Virus record (IMG/VR): IMGVR_UViG_3300034356_002967
Span: 1-34,090 of that record
Length of the DNA: 34,090 nucleotides
Reading direction: 5' to 3' (one strand)
DNA from: a virus
The notes beneath the pieces were generated by a model. The model did no database searches, was not told the DNA's origin, and saw nothing but the letters and a program-made list of their open reading frames with translations. Made by a program: the position numbers and the translations under genes. Every line of letters starts with the position of its first letter. Position 1 is the first letter of the stretch. Below, piece by piece: positions 8,440-28,713 of this stretch.

Positions 8440-9351
8440 TTATATTGTGTTGCGGACAACTCTAAATCCTATGGCAGTATTCGTAACATTGGGACCGCCA
8501 GCCGTACGTACTGCAACACGACTGTAATTAGGACCATCATTAGACGTCCAACCACCGCCACGTAATACACGAATTGTACCTGAAGTAGGTCCACGTGGAT
8601 TGGTCTGACTGCCTGTCGCGTATGCCCCAATCCAATCCCAACACCACTCCGATACATTTCCTGCCATGTCATACAAGCCGTAGCCATTGGCGGCAAAAGC
8701 CCCCACGGGCGAAGTGTAAGGTATCGATCCTGTCGCATAGGTCGGATGGAAATTGTTCACCGAGCCGCTGGAGTCGTAGCTGTAGCCACTAGCTGCGCGG
8801 TAATTCGCTTGGCTGTGGCTGATCGTGTCGCCCCAAGGAAAACGCTTACCACTCAAGCCTCCACGCGCCGCCTTTTCCCACTCCGCCTCCGTCGGCAGGC
8901 GGTAGCCATTGGCGGACCAGTTAACCTGCGCATTGGTCACATCTACATTTCCCGTTTTGTAGATCGTCGTCTGCGCGTCGTTGGTATAATACACGGGCGT
9001 GAGCCCCTCCTTCTCGCTACGGGCATTGCACCATTTCACCATCTGGTACCAAGCAATCGACTGCACAGGATGGTTGTTGGCCTTGCCGCTGCCTGCAGCG
9101 AGATCTGTGTAACCATTGTTCAAGCCCCAAGTGCGCACCTCGTCCCACTCGGCTTTTGTGACTTCATACTTGCCCATATAAAAGGCATCCAAGGTCACGA
9201 CTCGAATAGGAGAAGTGGAGATGTCTGTGTCGGCTGTCATACTATTACCCATAGTGAAGGCTCCTTGTGGAATGAAAGCCCACACATTTGCTCCTCCATT
9301 ACCTCCGTTATTACGTCGACGCCGCTTTCTTTTAATTGCAGAAAATAACAT
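8440..9351 (-). CDS. FGE/sulfatase-modifying-factor fold protein in the fibre cassette (probable adhesin)
   Basis: 303 residues. After a short basic, Gly-rich leader (KRKRRRR at 7-13), the whole protein matches the formylglycine-generating-enzyme/SUMF1 family: FTMGN (~32-36), EVTKAEWDEV, HPVQSIAWYQMVKWCN, YRLPTEAEWEKAARGG, FPWGD, GLYDMAGNVSEWCWDW, RVLRGGGW, and a C-terminal IGFRVVR. The C-terminal stretch where true FGEs carry two catalytic Cys has none, so formylglycine formation is unlikely. Phages often use this C-type-lectin-like fold as a binding domain. It starts 1 base after the fibre A stop and lacks the fibre docking module, so it may cap fibre A. It is clearly richer in GC than its neighbours (39/60 in 8881-8940 against 25/60 in 7561-7620), which suggests transfer from a bacterial gene. 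Confidence 0.88.
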   Translation of the reverse strand: MLFSAIKRKRRRRNNGGNGGANVWAFIPQGAFTMGNSMTADTDISTSPIRVVTLDAFYMGKYEVTKAEWDEVRTWGLNNGYTDLAAGSGKANNHPVQSIAWYQMVKWCNARSEKEGLTPVYYTNDAQTTIYKTGNVDVTNAQVNWSANGYRLPTEAEWEKAARGGLSGKRFPWGDTISHSQANYRAASGYSYDSSGSVNNFHPTYATGSIPYTSPVGAFAANGYGLYDMAGNVSEWCWDWIGAYATGSQTNPRGPTSGTIRVLRGGGWTSNDGPNYSRVAVRTAGGPNVTNTAIGFRVVRNTI

Positions 9352-17574: not shown

Positions 17575-18417
17575 TTATCCTGCTATTGGTGGTGATGTTG
17601 GGGCAGGGGTGCCTGGAGCACCATCACCGAGGTGAATATGTGTGAGCAATCCGCGAGCTCCAGCGAGAGCTCGCACATCTCCAGCTGCAATTAGTGCTCC
17701 ACCTAATATGTTTACAAGTGGTGTTGTCATATTTGTTACAGTTGAATACATCATAGTTGGTCCAAGTGATGTTAGAGTTAACATTGATACACCATCAATT
17801 GCTGCAGTCATGCCGCCAATTGTAGCTGCACCAGCTGGAGCGGTCATGCTTGCTCCAAGCAATGCTGTTGTACTACTTGAACCGGTGTATATTCCAGTAT
17901 ATCCTCCAGCTACAGTCTCTTCAATACTGCCAACTACCATGTTTTTTATACCGCCACCTCGTACTGTATTGTTTACTCCGTTGCCAACTATGCTGTCCTT
18001 TTTACCAACAATATTTTCTGCCTTGTCACCAAGCACTTCATTTTTGTATGCGGCACCAACTTTTAAACGATACTCGCCCTTAACGGTTTGGTTCATATTG
18101 CCATTTACTTCAACATTATAGTTGCCGTTCACAGTTAAATTTGCAGAACCGTTTACTGTAATATTTGCATCACCCATAATTGTTACAAAATCTTCTCCAC
18201 AAATTGTAGTATATCGATTTGAGACAACCATTACAGATAGCTTACCTTCAGCGTCTATAATACGTGATGTTCCAGACTTATGTTTTTCATGTATACGTTC
18301 ATTGCCTAATGTATCATCAATTTCAAAAATATGCCCCGAGCGAGTCTGCGTCACATTATTGTATGGATACACAGATTGATCTGTGGGAAACGGATGATTA
18401 AAGGTGTTGTTTGCCAT
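17575..18417 (-). CDS. Tail spike (gp5 C-terminal beta-helix needle) as a separate gene
   Basis: 280 residues. The start (FPTDQSVYPYNNV, TRSGHIFEIDDTLGNERI, HEKHKSGT) matches the point in T4 gp5 where the spike begins (YPYVHTMETESGHIQEFDDTPGQERYR). Next come short valine/glycine/asparagine repeats (ITVNGSANLTVNGNYNVEVN at ~88-107), the classic triple-stranded beta-helix pattern of gp5C and VgrG. The C-terminus (LLTHIHLGDGAPGTPAP) contains a His-x-His near a Gly/Pro-rich end, as in needles whose tip binds an iron ion (P2 gpV type). It lacks the OB fold and lysozyme fused to it in T4; those roles are taken by the three genes upstream. It has its own late promoter variant. Confidence 0.88.
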   Translation of the reverse strand: MANNTFNHPFPTDQSVYPYNNVTQTRSGHIFEIDDTLGNERIHEKHKSGTSRIIDAEGKLSVMVVSNRYTTICGEDFVTIMGDANITVNGSANLTVNGNYNVEVNGNMNQTVKGEYRLKVGAAYKNEVLGDKAENIVGKKDSIVGNGVNNTVRGGGIKNMVVGSIEETVAGGYTGIYTGSSSTTALLGASMTAPAGAATIGGMTAAIDGVSMLTLTSLGPTMMYSTVTNMTTPLVNILGGALIAAGDVRALAGARGLLTHIHLGDGAPGTPAPTSPPIAG

Positions 18418-18423
18418 ATTTTA

Positions 18424-18431
18424 TATTTATT
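18424..18431 (-). promoter_or_regulatory. Late promoter variant for the spike gene
   Basis: AATAAATA on the minus strand, 6 bases before the spike ATG and overlapping the stop of the CHAP gene. Its sequence and spacing match the fibre C promoter. Confidence 0.6.
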
Positions 18432-19221
18432 TAACAGAGGCGAGTGACTGATTATTAGATTGCGTATTATTTGGATACAATCTAATAGCACATGTAATGT
18501 TTGCTGCGGCAAATGTACGCTTTTTTATATATATTCCACCCACTCCAACCCGTGCATCCCTAACGACTGCAGTACTTCCAATTTTATCCGGACCAGTATT
18601 TCCTTCTATTATGGTCATTGTTTTTTCTTTTTTGTTTATATCAAAAACAAAATCATCGAGTATTATGCCTATATGACTTTTTCTAAAAATTACTATGTCT
18701 CCTCTTTTAAATTCACGCGGATTATCAATTCTAAGCGAATAATTTTTTCCAGTAGTACTTGACCATGTTGGCCAATTAGGACAATATGCTTCTTTTGGAC
18801 GATATTGTTCTGGAATTATATTTGCTTGCTTTACACACCAACACACATATGCTGCGCAATATGGAGGTGCGCCTTCTTTACCATTACGTATTGTAATATA
18901 GTTATATGCATTTGAACCCACTAATGTGGCGCTCCAATATTTTTCTATACCAGGACCTTGATTGTTAATTGTTCCTCGTTCGACTACACCTAACTCTCCT
19001 TTAGCGACTGCTATAAGTTTGCTTATCATAACACTTCTAGAGTCATTTGATAAGTCTTCAAGTTTAACATCCAGTGAAGAAAGGTTTGCCCCATTTGCGA
19101 TTGGCGAGCCGCTCGTGTAGTCTGATTTTAACATATCATTTTGCAACGGGATATTGTTATATGCGCTGCTTGAAGAGAGCGGCACACCATCAGGAAACAA
19201 ATTTGGCATTGTGATTGGCAT
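18427..19221 (-). CDS. CHAP-type peptidoglycan peptidase, tail-associated
   Basis: 264 residues from the ATG at 19221 (PITMPNLFPDG); an upstream TTG at 19236 is possible but overlaps the previous gene. Residues ~55-230 form a CHAP-like domain: MISKLIAVAKGELGV, then PYCAAYVCWCVKQANI with the probable nucleophile Cys, FKRGDIVIFRKSHIGII with the probable catalytic His, and IIEGNTG. The fold cleaves peptide cross-links or the amide bond of peptidoglycan. It lies between the OB-lysin and the spike, replacing the lysozyme part of T4 gp5, so it probably acts in local cell-wall digestion during injection. It has no signal peptide, which argues against a secreted host-type enzyme. It is related to the CHAP domain in the gene just upstream. 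Confidence 0.8.
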   Translation of the reverse strand: MPITMPNLFPDGVPLSSSSAYNNIPLQNDMLKSDYTSGSPIANGANLSSLDVKLEDLSNDSRSVMISKLIAVAKGELGVVERGTINNQGPGIEKYWSATLVGSNAYNYITIRNGKEGAPPYCAAYVCWCVKQANIIPEQYRPKEAYCPNWPTWSSTTGKNYSLRIDNPREFKRGDIVIFRKSHIGIILDDFVFDINKKEKTMTIIEGNTGPDKIGSTAVVRDARVGVGGIYIKKRTFAAANITCAIRLYPNNTQSNNQSLASVK

Positions 19222-19225
19222 AATT

Positions 19226-20572
19226 TTAACTATCAAAAAAGTAAAAACTTACAATATAATTACCATCAACAGCATTTCTATATTTTCCGTCTGATCCTTT
19301 AAGAATTTTAACTCCAATTGCTTCAGCTGTTGCAACTGACATTTCACTTCGGGTTTGTGTTGGACCGCGATCTCCAGCTATTGCCCATGTTGCTTGTTTA
19401 GTTGTATGGTTATAAACATACACTTTACTACCCATTTTAAAATTATTATAATCTTGTCTATTAACTACAACAAATTTTGTAATGTCACCATTTAAATATT
19501 GCCCACCAATTTTATATGCCGTTGCTGGTATATGCGTATCACCTGGCGGATAATAACCAGTACCATCAAAAACTATTGCAGGCGGGCCTGTTCTTTTTCC
19601 TATCCATCCAGCAGGTACACCAGTTGGAGTACTTTCAGGTGATAATGTCATTGGCGTTGCTACGTCAGTACCGCCAAATGCGCCTTTCCATCTCAACACA
19701 TAGTTAAATCCGCCCTTTTTATCCCGCACCATCACTGATCGATTTTTACCAGTGTTGCCTTCAACCGAAGTATAGCCGCCGGTAATTGAACCACCTTTAC
19801 TTACCAATCCTATATGATCTTGTGCAGCGTCCCTAATTAAAATATCGCCAGCATACAACACTTTAGGATTAGCAATTTTAATTACATACTTACCACCTTT
19901 TCCATTTGGCCATTTTAACCATTCGGCAACCGCATTTGGATTAGCCGGTAAATCTGATGTTGGTATTGCTCCTGTTTGTTTTATACACCATGTTAAAAAT
20001 GCTGCGCACCAAGCGTCATTAACGCCATATTTACTACGACCTGCGCTATTGCTTGTGCCATTTTCTCCTACTGCTATTCGTACTAAATTATTGATAAAGG
20101 CGCTTGTACTTGTACTTGTATTATTCTGTTGAGCAGCTATATCATCTCCATTAAGTGCCGAAGTATTTGCTGCTCCTGCAGAAGGTGAACCTTCTGTGTA
20201 TTGTGAGGTGTTTGTCGCGCTCGAATAGGCTGCGCCTACTGAAGAACTGCTAGCGTCTGCTGGTATGCTTGTTCCATTTAATGATTCGACTCCAGGAACA
20301 CTACCAAGTATTACTGGGTCTTGTTGATCAGCATCTCTAAAAAATCCAAAGACCCAACTACCAGCCATTAGTCCAGTTGGACTTGTGCCAGTACCAGCAC
20401 TACTAGCACTTGTAAGTGGCAGCAGTGGAGTTGCCCATGGTAAATTTTCACTAGGCACGCTATTAACATCATCAAGTTCATGATATTCATAGCACCGAAC
20501 TTGCACACGTCCTGCATTTAGCGGGTCTGCAATATTTTCTACTATGCCAATAAACCAATGATCAATTTTCAT
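19226..20572 (-). CDS. Baseplate hub lysin: gp5-type OB fold + CHAP peptidase + GH75-like domain
   Basis: 448 residues, three domains. (1) Residues ~1-95, gp5 N-terminal OB fold: HWFIGIVENIADPLNAGRVQ, SENLPWATPLLPLTSAS, GSWVFGFFRDADQQDPVILG, like T4 gp5. (2) After a Ser/Thr/Asn linker, ~165-295, a CHAP domain: NDAWCAAFLTWCIKQTG (nucleophile Cys), AGDILIRDAAQDHIGLVS (His), SVEGNTG. (3) ~325-448, a region resembling GH75 chitosanases: TAYKIGG, KFVVVNRQDY, MGSKVYVYNHTTKQATWAI, then AGDRGPTQTRSEMSVATAEA, where the Asp and Glu match the family's catalytic pair. T4 gp5 carries a lysozyme between OB fold and spike; this hub enzyme would cut both peptide and glycan. The GH75 call is from motif memory only. 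Confidence 0.78.
   Translation of the reverse strand: MKIDHWFIGIVENIADPLNAGRVQVRCYEYHELDDVNSVPSENLPWATPLLPLTSASSAGTGTSPTGLMAGSWVFGFFRDADQQDPVILGSVPGVESLNGTSIPADASSSSVGAAYSSATNTSQYTEGSPSAGAANTSALNGDDIAAQQNNTSTSTSAFINNLVRIAVGENGTSNSAGRSKYGVNDAWCAAFLTWCIKQTGAIPTSDLPANPNAVAEWLKWPNGKGGKYVIKIANPKVLYAGDILIRDAAQDHIGLVSKGGSITGGYTSVEGNTGKNRSVMVRDKKGGFNYVLRWKGAFGGTDVATPMTLSPESTPTGVPAGWIGKRTGPPAIVFDGTGYYPPGDTHIPATAYKIGGQYLNGDITKFVVVNRQDYNNFKMGSKVYVYNHTTKQATWAIAGDRGPTQTRSEMSVATAEAIGVKILKGSDGKYRNAVDGNYIVSFYFFDS
20402..20457. repeat. 56-bp perfect direct repeat, copy 1 (OB fold of the lysin gene)
   Basis: Identical to 20996-21051. It encodes the SENLPWATPLLPLTSAS part of the gp5-type OB fold. The flanking OB sequence has diverged between the two genes. 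Confidence 0.92.
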
Positions 20573-20581
20573 TTTATAACG

Positions 20582-20589
20582 TATTTATT
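20582..20589 (-). promoter_or_regulatory. Late promoter variant for the OB-CHAP-GH75 lysin
   Basis: AATAAATA on the minus strand, 9 bases before the lysin ATG, in the short gap after the OB-only gene. Confidence 0.5.
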
Positions 20590-20590
20590 A

Positions 20591-21163
20591 CTATAGATCT
20601 AGTGGTGGTAATACATCAATTGCATCGGCTTCTGGAGTTCCTGGCAGCGGTGGTAAAAGACTAGGTTCCTCATCTCCTCCAACTGGACTGCGATTTCCAA
20701 TATTACTGGCATTTGTAGTATTATTAAGAAACTCATCATATTGAACATCTATGCCAGTAGCAGTTTTTGTAGGTGACGGATTTGTACCAGACGGCCCAAT
20801 GGCATTTGCATTGGTTGAGCGTGTTGTTGAACTCACACTATTAGATGATGTGTTTCTGCCGCTAGACACAGAATTTAGTACAATTCCGCCAATACTATTA
20901 ATTATTACTGGATCCTGCAAGTCAGCATCTCTAAAAAAGCCAAACACCCAACTACCAACACGCAGACCCGTTGCGCTTGTGCCTACTCCCCCAAGACTAG
21001 CACTTGTAAGTGGCAGCAGTGGAGTTGCCCATGGTAAATTTTCACTAGGCAATATTATATTGTTTTGTTCATGATATTCAAAACAGCGAATCTGTACACG
21101 ACCTGCATTTAATGGGTCTGCAATATTTTCTACGACTCCAGTAAACCAATGTTCAATCTTCAT
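20591..21163 (-). CDS. gp5-type OB-fold hub protein without enzymatic domain
   Basis: 190 residues. The first ~95 residues are a gp5-type OB fold (HWFTGVVENIADPLNAGRVQ, SENLPWATPLLPLTSAS, GSWVFGFFRDADLQDPVI) almost identical to that of the next gene. The remainder is a low-complexity Ser/Asn/Thr tail ending in an acidic, Pro-rich stretch (EEPSLLPPLPGTPEADAID). There is no lysozyme, CHAP or beta-helix. In T4 the OB fold docks gp5 on the gp27 trimer, and this gene overlaps the gp27-like gene by ATGA, so it may be the structural hub plug while its duplicate carries the enzymes. Alternatively it is a truncated duplicate with no remaining role; tight coupling to gp27 argues against that. Confidence 0.8.
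   Translation of the reverse strand: MKIEHWFTGVVENIADPLNAGRVQIRCFEYHEQNNIILPSENLPWATPLLPLTSASLGGVGTSATGLRVGSWVFGFFRDADLQDPVIINSIGGIVLNSVSSGRNTSSNSVSSTTRSTNANAIGPSGTNPSPTKTATGIDVQYDEFLNNTTNASNIGNRSPVGGDEEPSLLPPLPGTPEADAIDVLPPLDL
20996..21051. repeat. 56-bp perfect direct repeat, copy 2 (OB-only gene)
   Basis: Identical to 20402-20457. The two copies lie 538 bases apart, outermost edge to inner edge, in the same orientation. Recombination between them would delete or duplicate one OB gene. Confidence 0.92.
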
Positions 21164-26120: not shown

Positions 26121-26831
26121 ATGCCATTACCAATCCTAGAATCCCCAAAATATGTATTGACTGTACCATCTACATCACAGTCAATTGAATATCGTCCTTT
26201 TCTTGTAAAGGAAGAAAAAATATTGCTGCTCGCACAGGAGTCAAATAACTCATCTGAAATGATGTCTGCAATTAAAGACATTATACGAGCCTGTACATTC
26301 GGTGTCGTTGACCCAAACGATTTGACTTCGTTTGACTTAGAGTATATTTTCTTAAAGTTACGAGCAAAGAGCGTAGGTGAAGTTAGCAATATCAAATGTA
26401 AGTGCGATCATTGTGAAACTTACAACGAGGTGTCTGTTAATATTGATGATATTGAAGTAACGTGGCCAGTTAAAGAAATTAGCAACAAAATTATGTTAAC
26501 TGATAAAATTGGTGTGGTTCTAAGACATATACGTGTAAATGATATGTCAACGATTATAAGCACATCTGAAGTTGATATGGACACAATAACAAATATGCTT
26601 ATTGCTTCAATTGATTCAATCTTTGATGACAGTGGAGTGTATCCCTCAGCACAGTCGTCTCGCGAAGAGTTGCTAACATTTGTTAACAGCTTAAGCCGAG
26701 CTCAACTTAATAAAATTGAAGAGTATATATCAAACTCTCCTAAACTACAACATAGTGTAAAATTTAATTGTACTGGTTGTAAGACTGACAATGATATTAC
26801 ACTTGTAGGCACACAAGCTTTTTTCGAATAG
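26121..26831 (+). CDS. 26: Baseplate hub assembly protein gp26 (T4 baseplate family)
   Basis: 236 residues. It matches the T4 baseplate protein family (Pfam T4_baseplate type): an N-terminal LPILESPKYVLTVPST, EYRPFLVKEEKILLLAQES (~24-42), IKDIIRACTFG (~51-61), and FDLEYIFLKLRAKSVGE (~70-86). A zinc-ribbon-like set of Cys follows: CKCDHC at ~93-98 and CTGC near 217-220. In T4, gp26 works with gp51 in assembling the central hub. The frame ends AFFE-stop in a T-rich run that forms a -1 slippery heptamer; see the frameshift entry. A fused product would have 293 residues. It lies directly upstream of gp51 and the tape-measure-like gene. Confidence 0.83.
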   Translation: MPLPILESPKYVLTVPSTSQSIEYRPFLVKEEKILLLAQESNNSSEMMSAIKDIIRACTFGVVDPNDLTSFDLEYIFLKLRAKSVGEVSNIKCKCDHCETYNEVSVNIDDIEVTWPVKEISNKIMLTDKIGVVLRHIRVNDMSTIISTSEVDMDTITNMLIASIDSIFDDSGVYPSAQSSREELLTFVNSLSRAQLNKIEEYISNSPKLQHSVKFNCTGCKTDNDITLVGTQAFFE

Positions 26832-26939
26832 CCCTCTCGCATGAATCGTTGACTAATTACTATCAAACAAACTTTGCACTCATGCAACATCACAAATATA
26901 GTTTAACTGAATTAGACACGATGATACCATGGGAGAGGG
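26819..26939 (+). promoter_or_regulatory. Candidate -1 programmed ribosomal frameshift signal (gp26 to gp51)
   Basis: The heptamer T TTT TTC at 26819-26825 is in the correct frame of gp26 for a -1 slip (codons GCT TTT TTC). Six bases later, after the gp26 stop codon, an 11-of-12 pairing is possible: 26832-26843 (CCCTCTC, mismatch, CATG) with 26928-26939 (CATG, mismatch, GAGAGGG). The spacer length and the slippery motif are as in known -1 frameshift sites; the loop of 84 bases is unusually long. Slipping places the ribosome in the gp51 frame at CGA 26825. Confidence 0.62.
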
Positions 26940-27001
26940 AAATTTATATTGCAATGCTAATAAAACACATAAGAGAAGAAGAAGAAAAACGTAAAAAATG
27001 A
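26825..27001 (+). CDS. 51: Baseplate hub assembly protein gp51 (frame without its own proper start)
   Basis: 58 codons in the -1 frame relative to gp26, ending TGA inside the ATGA overlap with the next gene. Translation gives RIALSHESLTNYYQTNF, ALMQHHKYSLTELDTMI, PWEREIYIAMLI and then a charged EEEEKRKK tail. This is the small gp51-type protein that follows gp26 in marine T4-like phages (NYYxTNFAxMQHHKYSL, WEREIY). There is no ATG before the conserved part; the first in-frame ATG (26882) lies inside it and the only near-start is a TTG at 26849. The frame is blocked upstream by a stop codon ending at 26793, so the intact conserved region is best explained by frameshifting from gp26. T4 gp51 is a catalytic hub-assembly factor absent from the virion. 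Confidence 0.75.
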   Translation, partial: RIALSHESLTNYYQTNFALMQHHKYSLTELDTMIPWEREIYIAMLIKHIREEEEKRKK

Positions 27002-28713
27002 CCGCAGAATCAACACTAGCACAAGTTGTAAAGGAATTACAAAGCTCAAACTTGTCTCAAGATCTTATTCTTGATACAATCGATAACTATGACTTTACAC
27101 TTGCGTCAAATGCTGCTCGTGAAAACACTACAGAGGTTCCTACGTTTTTAGATAAATTAGTAGGCATAGCAGGCGATTTAAAAGGCAAATTTGATGTATT
27201 AATACGATCTAATGTAGTGTTGGCAAAACGTCTTGAAGGCAATAAACTTCAAGAACGTGAAAATCGTGACGAATTACTTGATGCTCTTAGAGGTTTAAAA
27301 CCAGATAAAACACGTTCAGCACCAGCTAAAAATTCTAAGATTGAAATGCCAGGCGGAATATTTGGGGGATTGCTGTCTGTGGCTGCGTTAATGGGTGGAT
27401 TTGTAACAGGATTTATATCTCAGCTCACGTCTCCAATATTTGCTGCACTAAAAAATACAAAACTATTTCAAAAAATATCTAGTATTTTTTCTACAGTTAG
27501 CAAATTTTTTACTGGCATTGTACTAAGTTTAAAAAATTCTCCTTTATTTAAAGGAACATTTACTGTAATAGAAAAGATTGGCGGTCTCTTAAATAAATTT
27601 AAATCAAGTAAAATTTTTACGCTACTTGGTAAAATCTTTTCAATATTTGGAAATTCACCAGTATTAAAGACTATAACAGCTACATCTGGAATAATAGGAA
27701 GCGCCTTTTCTGCTCTTACGGATATATTTGGCGGGATGTTTAGGTTTTTTAAAATTGGTTTGACGCTTGGAAGCAAATTTGCTGGTTTATTTAAATTTTT
27801 AGGCGGTCCATTTACCTTAGCACTCACTGGAATAATAAGTGGTATTATGGGTGCAATTGACGGCTTTAAGAAAGATGGATTAATCGGTGGATTAAAGGGG
27901 TTTTTAGTTGGTGCATTTGATGGATTAATCGGAGGTCTGCTAGATCTTGTAAAAGATGGAATATCTTGGGTATCTGAAAAACTTGGATTTTCAGAATTTT
28001 CTAAATTTTTAGATAGTTTTTCCTTTACTGGTTTATATTCAAAGTATATAATTGATCCACTGTTTGGAATGTATGCTGAAATTGGTAAATTTATAGGTGA
28101 AATACCTATGATGGTTACTGATTTCTTTACATCACTACCTGATAAAATTAGTGTATTTTTTACTTCGGCAATGGATTCATTAACAACTATTTCAGATGAT
28201 ATGAGTGAAGTTGTAAATAATTTTAATAAGGCTGTATTACGAGCAGTATTACCAGATCCAAAGGCAAAAGGAGGAATGTCTTATTATTTAAAATTAGCAA
28301 TACCAGATTCTTTATATGAGTATGCATACAGTAGTTCTCCAAAAGAAAAAGAATCAACTAATTCTACATCAGAAAAATTAGCAACCGCTGCAACGTCTTC
28401 TGAAAAAATATTAAAGGCTACATCTACAAATAATTTTACCGAACTAAGCAAAACTGAAAAGGCAATGGCTGCAGGTTATGGTTCATGGGATGAGTATGCT
28501 GCTTCAGACTTTAAGTGGAAAGCAAACATCAAAGCAACACCATTAACAACTGGCAACACCCTAGCGACTGCCGGCAACGTTGCAAATATTTCGCCAACGA
28601 TAGTTGTTAATAACAATAATGGTGGCAATACTAATAATATTAGTAGCAGCAATGTAAATAATAATATGCCACAAATGATGCCAATACTAACTGGCAGTGC
28701 AATGGGTTATTAA
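26998..28713 (+). CDS. Putative tail tape-measure / hub protein (gp29-like)
   Basis: 571 residues, almost the size of T4 gp29 (590). Residues ~1-110 are charged and helical (LAQVVKELQSSNLSQDLIL, ERENRDELLDALRGLKPD). Residues ~118-145 are a Gly-rich hydrophobic segment (GGIFGGLLSVAALMGGFVTG). Residues ~150-400 are a long run of amphipathic and hydrophobic helices (FQKISSIFSTVSKFF, GPFTLALTGIISGIMGAIDG, GLIGGLLDLVKDG) typical of tape-measure proteins. The C-terminus is Asn/Ser/Thr-rich (NNNNGGNTNNISSSN). Similarity to gp29 itself is not evident; the call rests on composition, length and position after gp26-gp51, as in T4. Its ATG overlaps the gp51 stop. The 3' end overlaps the convergent thioredoxin-like gene by 4 bases. 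Confidence 0.62.
   Translation: MTAESTLAQVVKELQSSNLSQDLILDTIDNYDFTLASNAARENTTEVPTFLDKLVGIAGDLKGKFDVLIRSNVVLAKRLEGNKLQERENRDELLDALRGLKPDKTRSAPAKNSKIEMPGGIFGGLLSVAALMGGFVTGFISQLTSPIFAALKNTKLFQKISSIFSTVSKFFTGIVLSLKNSPLFKGTFTVIEKIGGLLNKFKSSKIFTLLGKIFSIFGNSPVLKTITATSGIIGSAFSALTDIFGGMFRFFKIGLTLGSKFAGLFKFLGGPFTLALTGIISGIMGAIDGFKKDGLIGGLKGFLVGAFDGLIGGLLDLVKDGISWVSEKLGFSEFSKFLDSFSFTGLYSKYIIDPLFGMYAEIGKFIGEIPMMVTDFFTSLPDKISVFFTSAMDSLTTISDDMSEVVNNFNKAVLRAVLPDPKAKGGMSYYLKLAIPDSLYEYAYSSSPKEKESTNSTSEKLATAATSSEKILKATSTNNFTELSKTEKAMAAGYGSWDEYAASDFKWKANIKATPLTTGNTLATAGNVANISPTIVVNNNNGGNTNNISSSNVNNNMPQMMPILTGSAMGY

Follow-up and report, generated by a model that had tools for sequence, protein, structure and literature searches.

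The -1 frameshift signal of phage lambda is built on the heptamer G GGA AAG, and signals of the dnaX type combine a Shine-Dalgarno-like stretch, a heptamer, and a downstream hairpin. In lambda, a short form (gpG) and a -1 extended long form (gpGT) are encoded adjoining and upstream of the tape measure gene (PMC5009743). Chaperone frameshifting is also described for the Vandenendeviridae and Andersonviridae, which are other phage families with a different heptamer (PMC12846349). For T4-like phages, two papers cite Vladimirov, Gautam, and Davidson 2022 (Virology 566:9-15): PMC10885494, on PRFect, for T4-like phages in which a short gene occurs alongside a long fusion gene, and PMC12846349, on phage Adele, for poly-T -1 signals in TAC-N genes. 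The chaperones in these citations belong to the same family as those considered here (PF12322, phrog_150), and poly-T slippery sites are reported for them, such that the original prediction, which knew of no description for T4-like phages, does not hold as to novelty. T4 gp26 and gp51 are themselves classed as hub assembly chaperones (PMC3004832), and Sullivan et al. 2010 (PMC3037559) noted that gp51 of cyanophages and marine vibriophages is without its first ~200 residues, a feature left unexplained there.

The window analyzed here is the whole of the metagenomic virus record IMGVR_UViG_3300034356_002967 (34,090 nt), and the features of its gp26–gp51 region are as follows.

26121–26831, + strand: gp26 reading frame, the predicted short form (TAC-N-like), 236 aa; matches phrog_150 (1.9e-60) and PF12322 (9.6e-57)
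26806–26813, + strand: Shine-Dalgarno-like stretch upstream of the heptamer, weak and doubtful here; many relatives have a strong one
26819–26825, + strand: slippery heptamer T TTT TTC, in phase; an in-phase TTTTTTN is shared by the 80 IMG/VR relatives fetched
26825–27001, + strand: gp51 part read after a -1 shift, 58 aa; matches phrog_634 (8e-28)
26829–26831, + strand: gp26 stop codon TAG, within the spacer
26832–26843, + strand: 5′ arm of the long-range stem, CCCTCTCGCATG
26928–26939, + strand: 3′ arm of the long-range stem, CATGGGAGAGGG, which codes for the P-W-E-R-E region of gp51
26998–28713, + strand: next gene, tape-measure-like; matches phrog_1535, tail length tape measure (3.4e-10)
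26999–27001, + strand: TGA stop of the gp51 frame

The final codons of gp26 read GCT TTT TTC GAA TAG, which sets the heptamer in the phase X XXY YYZ, and from 26822 no stop codon interrupts the -1 frame until 26999–27001. Translation from 26822 matches the gp51 family phrog_634 (8e-28) and also the C-terminal end of phrog_150 (1.8e-6), the latter being a first hint that both parts may lie in one chain in some family members. The coordinates originally proposed for the in-phase heptamer and the -1 position of gp51 hold, as does the assertion that no ATG precedes the intact conserved region of gp51: TTG 26849 is the sole ATG, GTG, or TTG codon ahead of the conserved core in that frame. The gp26/gp51 pair lies directly upstream of the tape-measure-like gene, whose ATG overlaps the gp51 stop (ATGA).

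We conclude that -1 slippage very probably yields two chaperone forms from one gene in this T4-like virus of marine bacteria. A fraction of the ribosomes on gp26 would slip back one base at T TTT TTC before reaching the gp26 stop and would continue in the gp51 frame, such that one mRNA would give gp26 itself (236 aa) as the short chaperone and, as the long one, a gp26–gp51 protein of 293 aa (235 residues of gp26 plus 58 of gp51), the two being predicted to share an N-terminus in the manner of a TAC-N/TAC-NC pair. The hairpin closed by 26832–26843 and 26928–26939, which begins 6 bases past the heptamer, probably makes the ribosome stall, and by homology both forms would be tail assembly chaperones that prepare the product of the adjoining gene, the tape measure protein. 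We infer the slippage in the cell and its rate, the hairpin as its driver, and the protein binding partners. The ~200 residues absent from gp51 would come from gp26, which would account for the remark in PMC3037559. The proposed lambda-like fusion of gp51 to gp26 upstream of the tape-measure-like gene is strongly supported by the sequence comparisons below, and we are highly confident in a -1 programmed ribosomal frameshift at T TTT TTC that joins the two, with the hairpin probably stalling the ribosome and a tail-assembly chaperone pair as the predicted product.

Although the locus has the short form, the -1 extended long form, and the gene position of lambda gpG/gpGT, it differs in belonging to another sequence family and in carrying T TTT TTC together with a strong downstream stem. 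The two forms, along with a possibly chaperone-like gp26 N-terminus, imply that the pair would work like lambda G/GT. An AF2 model of gp26 (pLDDT 88.5) gave no match at E 0.001 or better in a Foldseek search of the PDB. The solved structures nearest its N-terminal part were 3fgx, 2ob9, and 3klu (Z 7.9, 7.3, and 6.7, followed by 4.9), values below 8 that can reflect a common arrangement; we take 3fgx and 3klu to be chaperone-like phage proteins. Against HK97 gp13 (2ob9), residues 1–85 of the gp26 model gave Z 7.3 and an rmsd of 4.2 over 84 residues with 8% identity, whereas gp26 is about twice as long as HK97 gp13. These model comparisons are suggestive of a resemblance between the gp26 N-terminus and a tail assembly chaperone. 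A T4-like gp51 was modeled as well (L106; pLDDT 83.7, from eight sequences); its elements follow largely the order seen in gp26, and further helices are added at the C-terminus.

The heptamer by itself means little, because TTTTTTC occurs 23 times on both strands of the window versus 13.4 expected. Its conservation was assessed in the best 80 of at least 599 IMG/VR stretches fetched as relatives. In all 80, gp51 lies in the -1 frame and its match opens at an in-phase TTTTTTN, with C (54), T (25), or A (1) as the last base. Loci without a gp51 start codon are included, and the prediction thereby passed its own refuting condition, loss of the heptamer where gp51 lacks a start. In the same best 80 of at least 599, the gp26 stop lies 10 (58), 7 (11), 31 (8), or 16 (3) bases from the heptamer start. 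Named phages were picked by hand from the hit lists, and 17 of the 19 one-locus phages examined keep an in-phase T TTT TTN. The first named set carries it in 10 of 10 (S-PM2, Mosig, S-CAM1, S-MbCM25, S-PRM1, P-SSM2, Vibrio ValKK3, Sinorhizobium phiN3, Caulobacter Cr30, and Rhizobium RHph_I1_9). The second, of 11 records, comprises seven with the heptamer (pf16, phiM9, Marzo, LPCS28, V05, LG08, and S-CRM01), two lacking it (Se_EM1, a member of the Ackermannviridae, and KFM-TASP06, a similar Klebsiella phage with no family given in its record), and two with separate short and long genes (Va1 and AB1I1M-1). The 17 named heptamer-bearing records annotate gp51 as its own gene in 13 cases and nothing in its place in four (S-CAM1, S-MbCM25, S-PRM1, and LPCS28); none lists a joined gene, and therefore the long form of the hub assembly chaperone is missing from their annotations.

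Removal of redundancy from 98 heptamer-bearing loci left 84, all kept because they bear the heptamer; the heptamer-less Se_EM1 and KFM-TASP06 and the split-gene phages T4, Aes508, TNG87, Va1, and AB1I1M-1 stand outside this set. Loci scoring below 40 bits against a profile of the predicted fusion were left out, and no locus that passed this filter was without the heptamer. Its variants among the 84 are TTTTTTC (56), TTTTTTT (25), TTTTTTG (2), and TTTTTTA (1). The preceding codon specifies S (44), D (23), N (11), or A (6) and ends in T in every locus, and the first phenylalanine codon of the heptamer is TTT in 84 of 84 although TTT makes up 67% of gp26 F codons; under pooled codon usage, with related loci counted as independent, the probabilities of these two patterns are 10^-22.8 and 10^-14.8. 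Of the 145 other F-[F/L] pairs in gp26, 17 form slippery sequences.

The alternative that survives best, while still very improbable, is that gp51 is an independent short gene whose translation begins at TTG 26849 or at an ATG within it, or re-initiates once the gp26 stop has been reached. That TTG is in frame, an ATG overlaps the gp26 stop in ValKK3, Cr30, RHph_I1_9, and phiN3, and annotators list gp51 as a gene of its own in the 13 of 17 named records given above. When the 84 loci were searched from the upstream -1 stop to codon 16, an ATG was found ahead of or early in gp51 in 28, where re-initiation is possible, and GTG or TTG only in 17. Nevertheless, 39 of the 84 have none of the three codons in this stretch, and residues ahead of any start are conserved in a manner expected of protein. 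This selection test, like the stem tests below, used 74 of the 84 loci in a gapless alignment of 74 sequences, from which eight loci had been excluded for other spacing, no recognized motif, or too little sequence, and L090 and L105 as divergent despite the same spacing. Over codons 4–18 of the -1 frame, 28 independent pairs showed 33, 31, and 111 differences at codon positions 1, 2, and 3, and the nonsynonymous/synonymous measure was 0.15 for these pairs and 0.11 for 14 pairs of start-less loci. By this measure purifying selection acts on the -1 frame of the gp51 stretch, and the stretch behaves as though translated without any standard start. Independent initiation also leaves the fixed heptamer unexplained.

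The T4 genes bear on the same question. T4 gp26 and gp51 are separate genes that both match PF12322 and phrog_150. In a five-sequence search, the predicted-fusion profile aligned with T4 gp26 over positions 10–235, ending at the shift point (E 1.7e-24), and with T4 gp51 over positions 75–278, crossing it (E 2.4e-12), such that by profile T4 gp26 matches the short form and T4 gp51 the long form. T4 gp51 has a gp26-like domain ahead of its tail, which speaks against an independent gp51 and indicates that the long form is the ancestral or the needed product. Whereas T4 makes its short and long forms from two genes, the window would make them from one by frameshifting. The suggestion that T4-like hub genes share the device was therefore only partly borne out: it is strongly supported for the window and its heptamer-bearing relatives, but does not hold for T4 itself. 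In Vibrio phage Va1 (L101, 1348–2690), a short and a long chaperone gene, each recognized by the fusion profile, lie in tandem on the same strand, a layout that possibly stands midway between frameshifting and the divergent gene order of T4. No heptamer was found at the end of the short gene in any of the five split-gene phages (T4, Aes508, TNG87, AB1I1M-1, and Va1), and because these split genes do without it, the short/long pair appears to be kept by either device, frameshift or separate genes.

An unannotated gp51-like stretch follows gp26 in the -1 frame of Se_EM1 (L099, 2301–2480) and KFM-TASP06 (L100, 2298–2480). It scores 13.8 and 14.6 bits versus at most 4.2 in 50 shuffled peptides. 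Both phages are without a TTTTTT heptamer, their zero frame ends ATT TTC ATT TAA, and an ATG lies about 14 codons in; we count this occurrence of the stretch in the absence of the heptamer against frameshifting.

Returning to the frameshift, we confirmed the predicted pairing of CCCTCTCGCATG (26832–26843) with CATGGGAGAGGG (26928–26939) at 11 of 12 positions, with the gp26 TAG (26829–26831) inside a six-base spacer that falls within the 5–9 bases expected for a stimulatory structure. The arms enclose an 84-base interval inside the -1 coding frame. The 120 bases after the heptamer (26826–26945) fold at -34.6 kcal/mol (z -6.55, with 0 of 200 shuffles as good). The mean downstream folding z was -2.66 over 83 loci (36 below -3) versus -0.57 over 168 control windows (8 below -3).

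When the outer helix of the window was imposed on the 74 sequences, it exceeded shuffled alignments in paired cells (77.4% versus 73.2), doubly changed cells (73 versus 40.6), and covariation (0.221 versus 0.168), with 0 of 500 shuffles reaching any of these values, and it beat slid versions of itself on the same three measures. Two further counts over the 74 sequences, pairs showing a double change and pair types, were not above shuffles (reached in 420 and 342 of 500, respectively), and certain slid versions equal or exceed the outer helix in both. Parsimony covered nine of the 15 pairs and placed double changes on nine branches at columns 8/113, five at 11/110, five at 17/104, two at 7/114, and two at 15/106; the totals were 23 double changes, any of which on one branch may represent two successive single changes, 18 one-sided kept changes, 54 pair losses, and 36 pair gains. 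Loci paired better with their own arms than with swapped arms (9.39 versus 8.79 of 14 pairs; 0 of 5000 permutations, related loci counted as independent), and the result was similar with L090 and L105, each with 7 of 14 pairs, restored to make 76 loci (9.33 versus 8.72; 0 of 5000). At least 11 of 14 stem pairs form in 37 of the 74 loci, a subset picked after the fact, so that permutation inside it is not independent evidence.

RNAalifold returned no consensus structure for all 74 sequences, perhaps because clades use different downstream structures, and therefore the count of the named structure and the arm-swap test were used instead. In some of the remaining loci, the first 50 bases form a local hairpin (z -6.6 in S-PM2, -4.3 in P-SSM2, -3.9 in Cr30, and -3.5 in S-PRM1); in others, such as L052, neither the long-range stem nor a local hairpin is clear. 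By eye, a CCTCT-type 5′ arm faces an AGAGG ~15–20 bases on, within the first 40 bases past the heptamer, in L050, L069, L073, L078, and L080, which may possibly have switched partner away from the distant 3′ arm. The alignment check on the relatives bore out both elements, with the heptamer conserved and the stem, by these comparisons, real and covarying. Because heptamer, phase, and stem are conserved in relatives, the signal as a whole is far beyond chance.

A Shine-Dalgarno-like stretch 4–12 bases upstream of the heptamer averages -5.8 kcal/mol over the 84 loci versus -1.3 for controls and is weak in the window (-2.4 kcal/mol); conserved glutamate-glycine codons may explain part of this signal. 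No trade-off was found between its strength and fold strength (Spearman -0.01, p 0.95). S-PM2 and P-SSM2 are most like the dnaX-type signal, from which the window differs in its weak Shine-Dalgarno-like part and in a stem that closes an 84-base interval. In S-PM2 (L082, 3712–3760), the heptamer is followed by a strong local hairpin (z -6.6 over 50 bases) and preceded by GGAGGG, a dnaX-like layout unlike that of the window.

Even less probable than separate initiation is transcriptional slippage, in which RNA polymerase would slip on the T run and an altered number of U residues would join the frames. The run comprises six T, lengthened to seven in 25 of the relatives fetched (80, the best of at least 599 stretches), but six-base runs are short for polymerase slippage, and the covarying stem at a spacing typical of ribosomal signals, together with the upstream Shine-Dalgarno-like stretches, points to the ribosome. 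A sequencing or assembly error that split one gene, conceivable in a metagenomic record given that homopolymers are error-prone, has a negligible probability because an identical break recurs at this codon throughout the 80 metagenomic relatives (the best of at least 599 stretches) and in 17 named isolates.

Ribosomal frameshifting, very probable at this site, is ordinary in kind as a mechanism, and the new piece is likely the conserved long-range stem with the exchange of devices across lineages. On balance we favor a scheme in which the frameshift of the marine group is set by the conserved, covarying long-range stem with arms 84 bases apart, and other lineages keep the pair by a local hairpin with a strong Shine-Dalgarno-like stretch (S-PM2 and P-SSM2), by separate genes (T4 and the Va1 tandem), or by a heptamer-less route (Se_EM1 and KFM-TASP06). 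The literature searched, which left most subscription journals outside, yielded no account of a covarying long-range stem. Control of the chaperone ratio becomes testable through the stem and through the exchange of devices among lineages.

Two further observations concern other parts of the window. On the - strand, three frames within 17575–21163 match the hub/tail-lysozyme family phrog_430: 19226–20572 and 20591–21163 both match its N-terminal ~100 positions, and 17575–18417 matches its middle, with an endolysin-like frame (18427–19236) sitting between them, such that the hub gene looks split and partly duplicated. Also on the - strand, a frame at 8440–9351, amid tail fiber genes, matches a family called kinase (phrog_18508, 3.5e-40).
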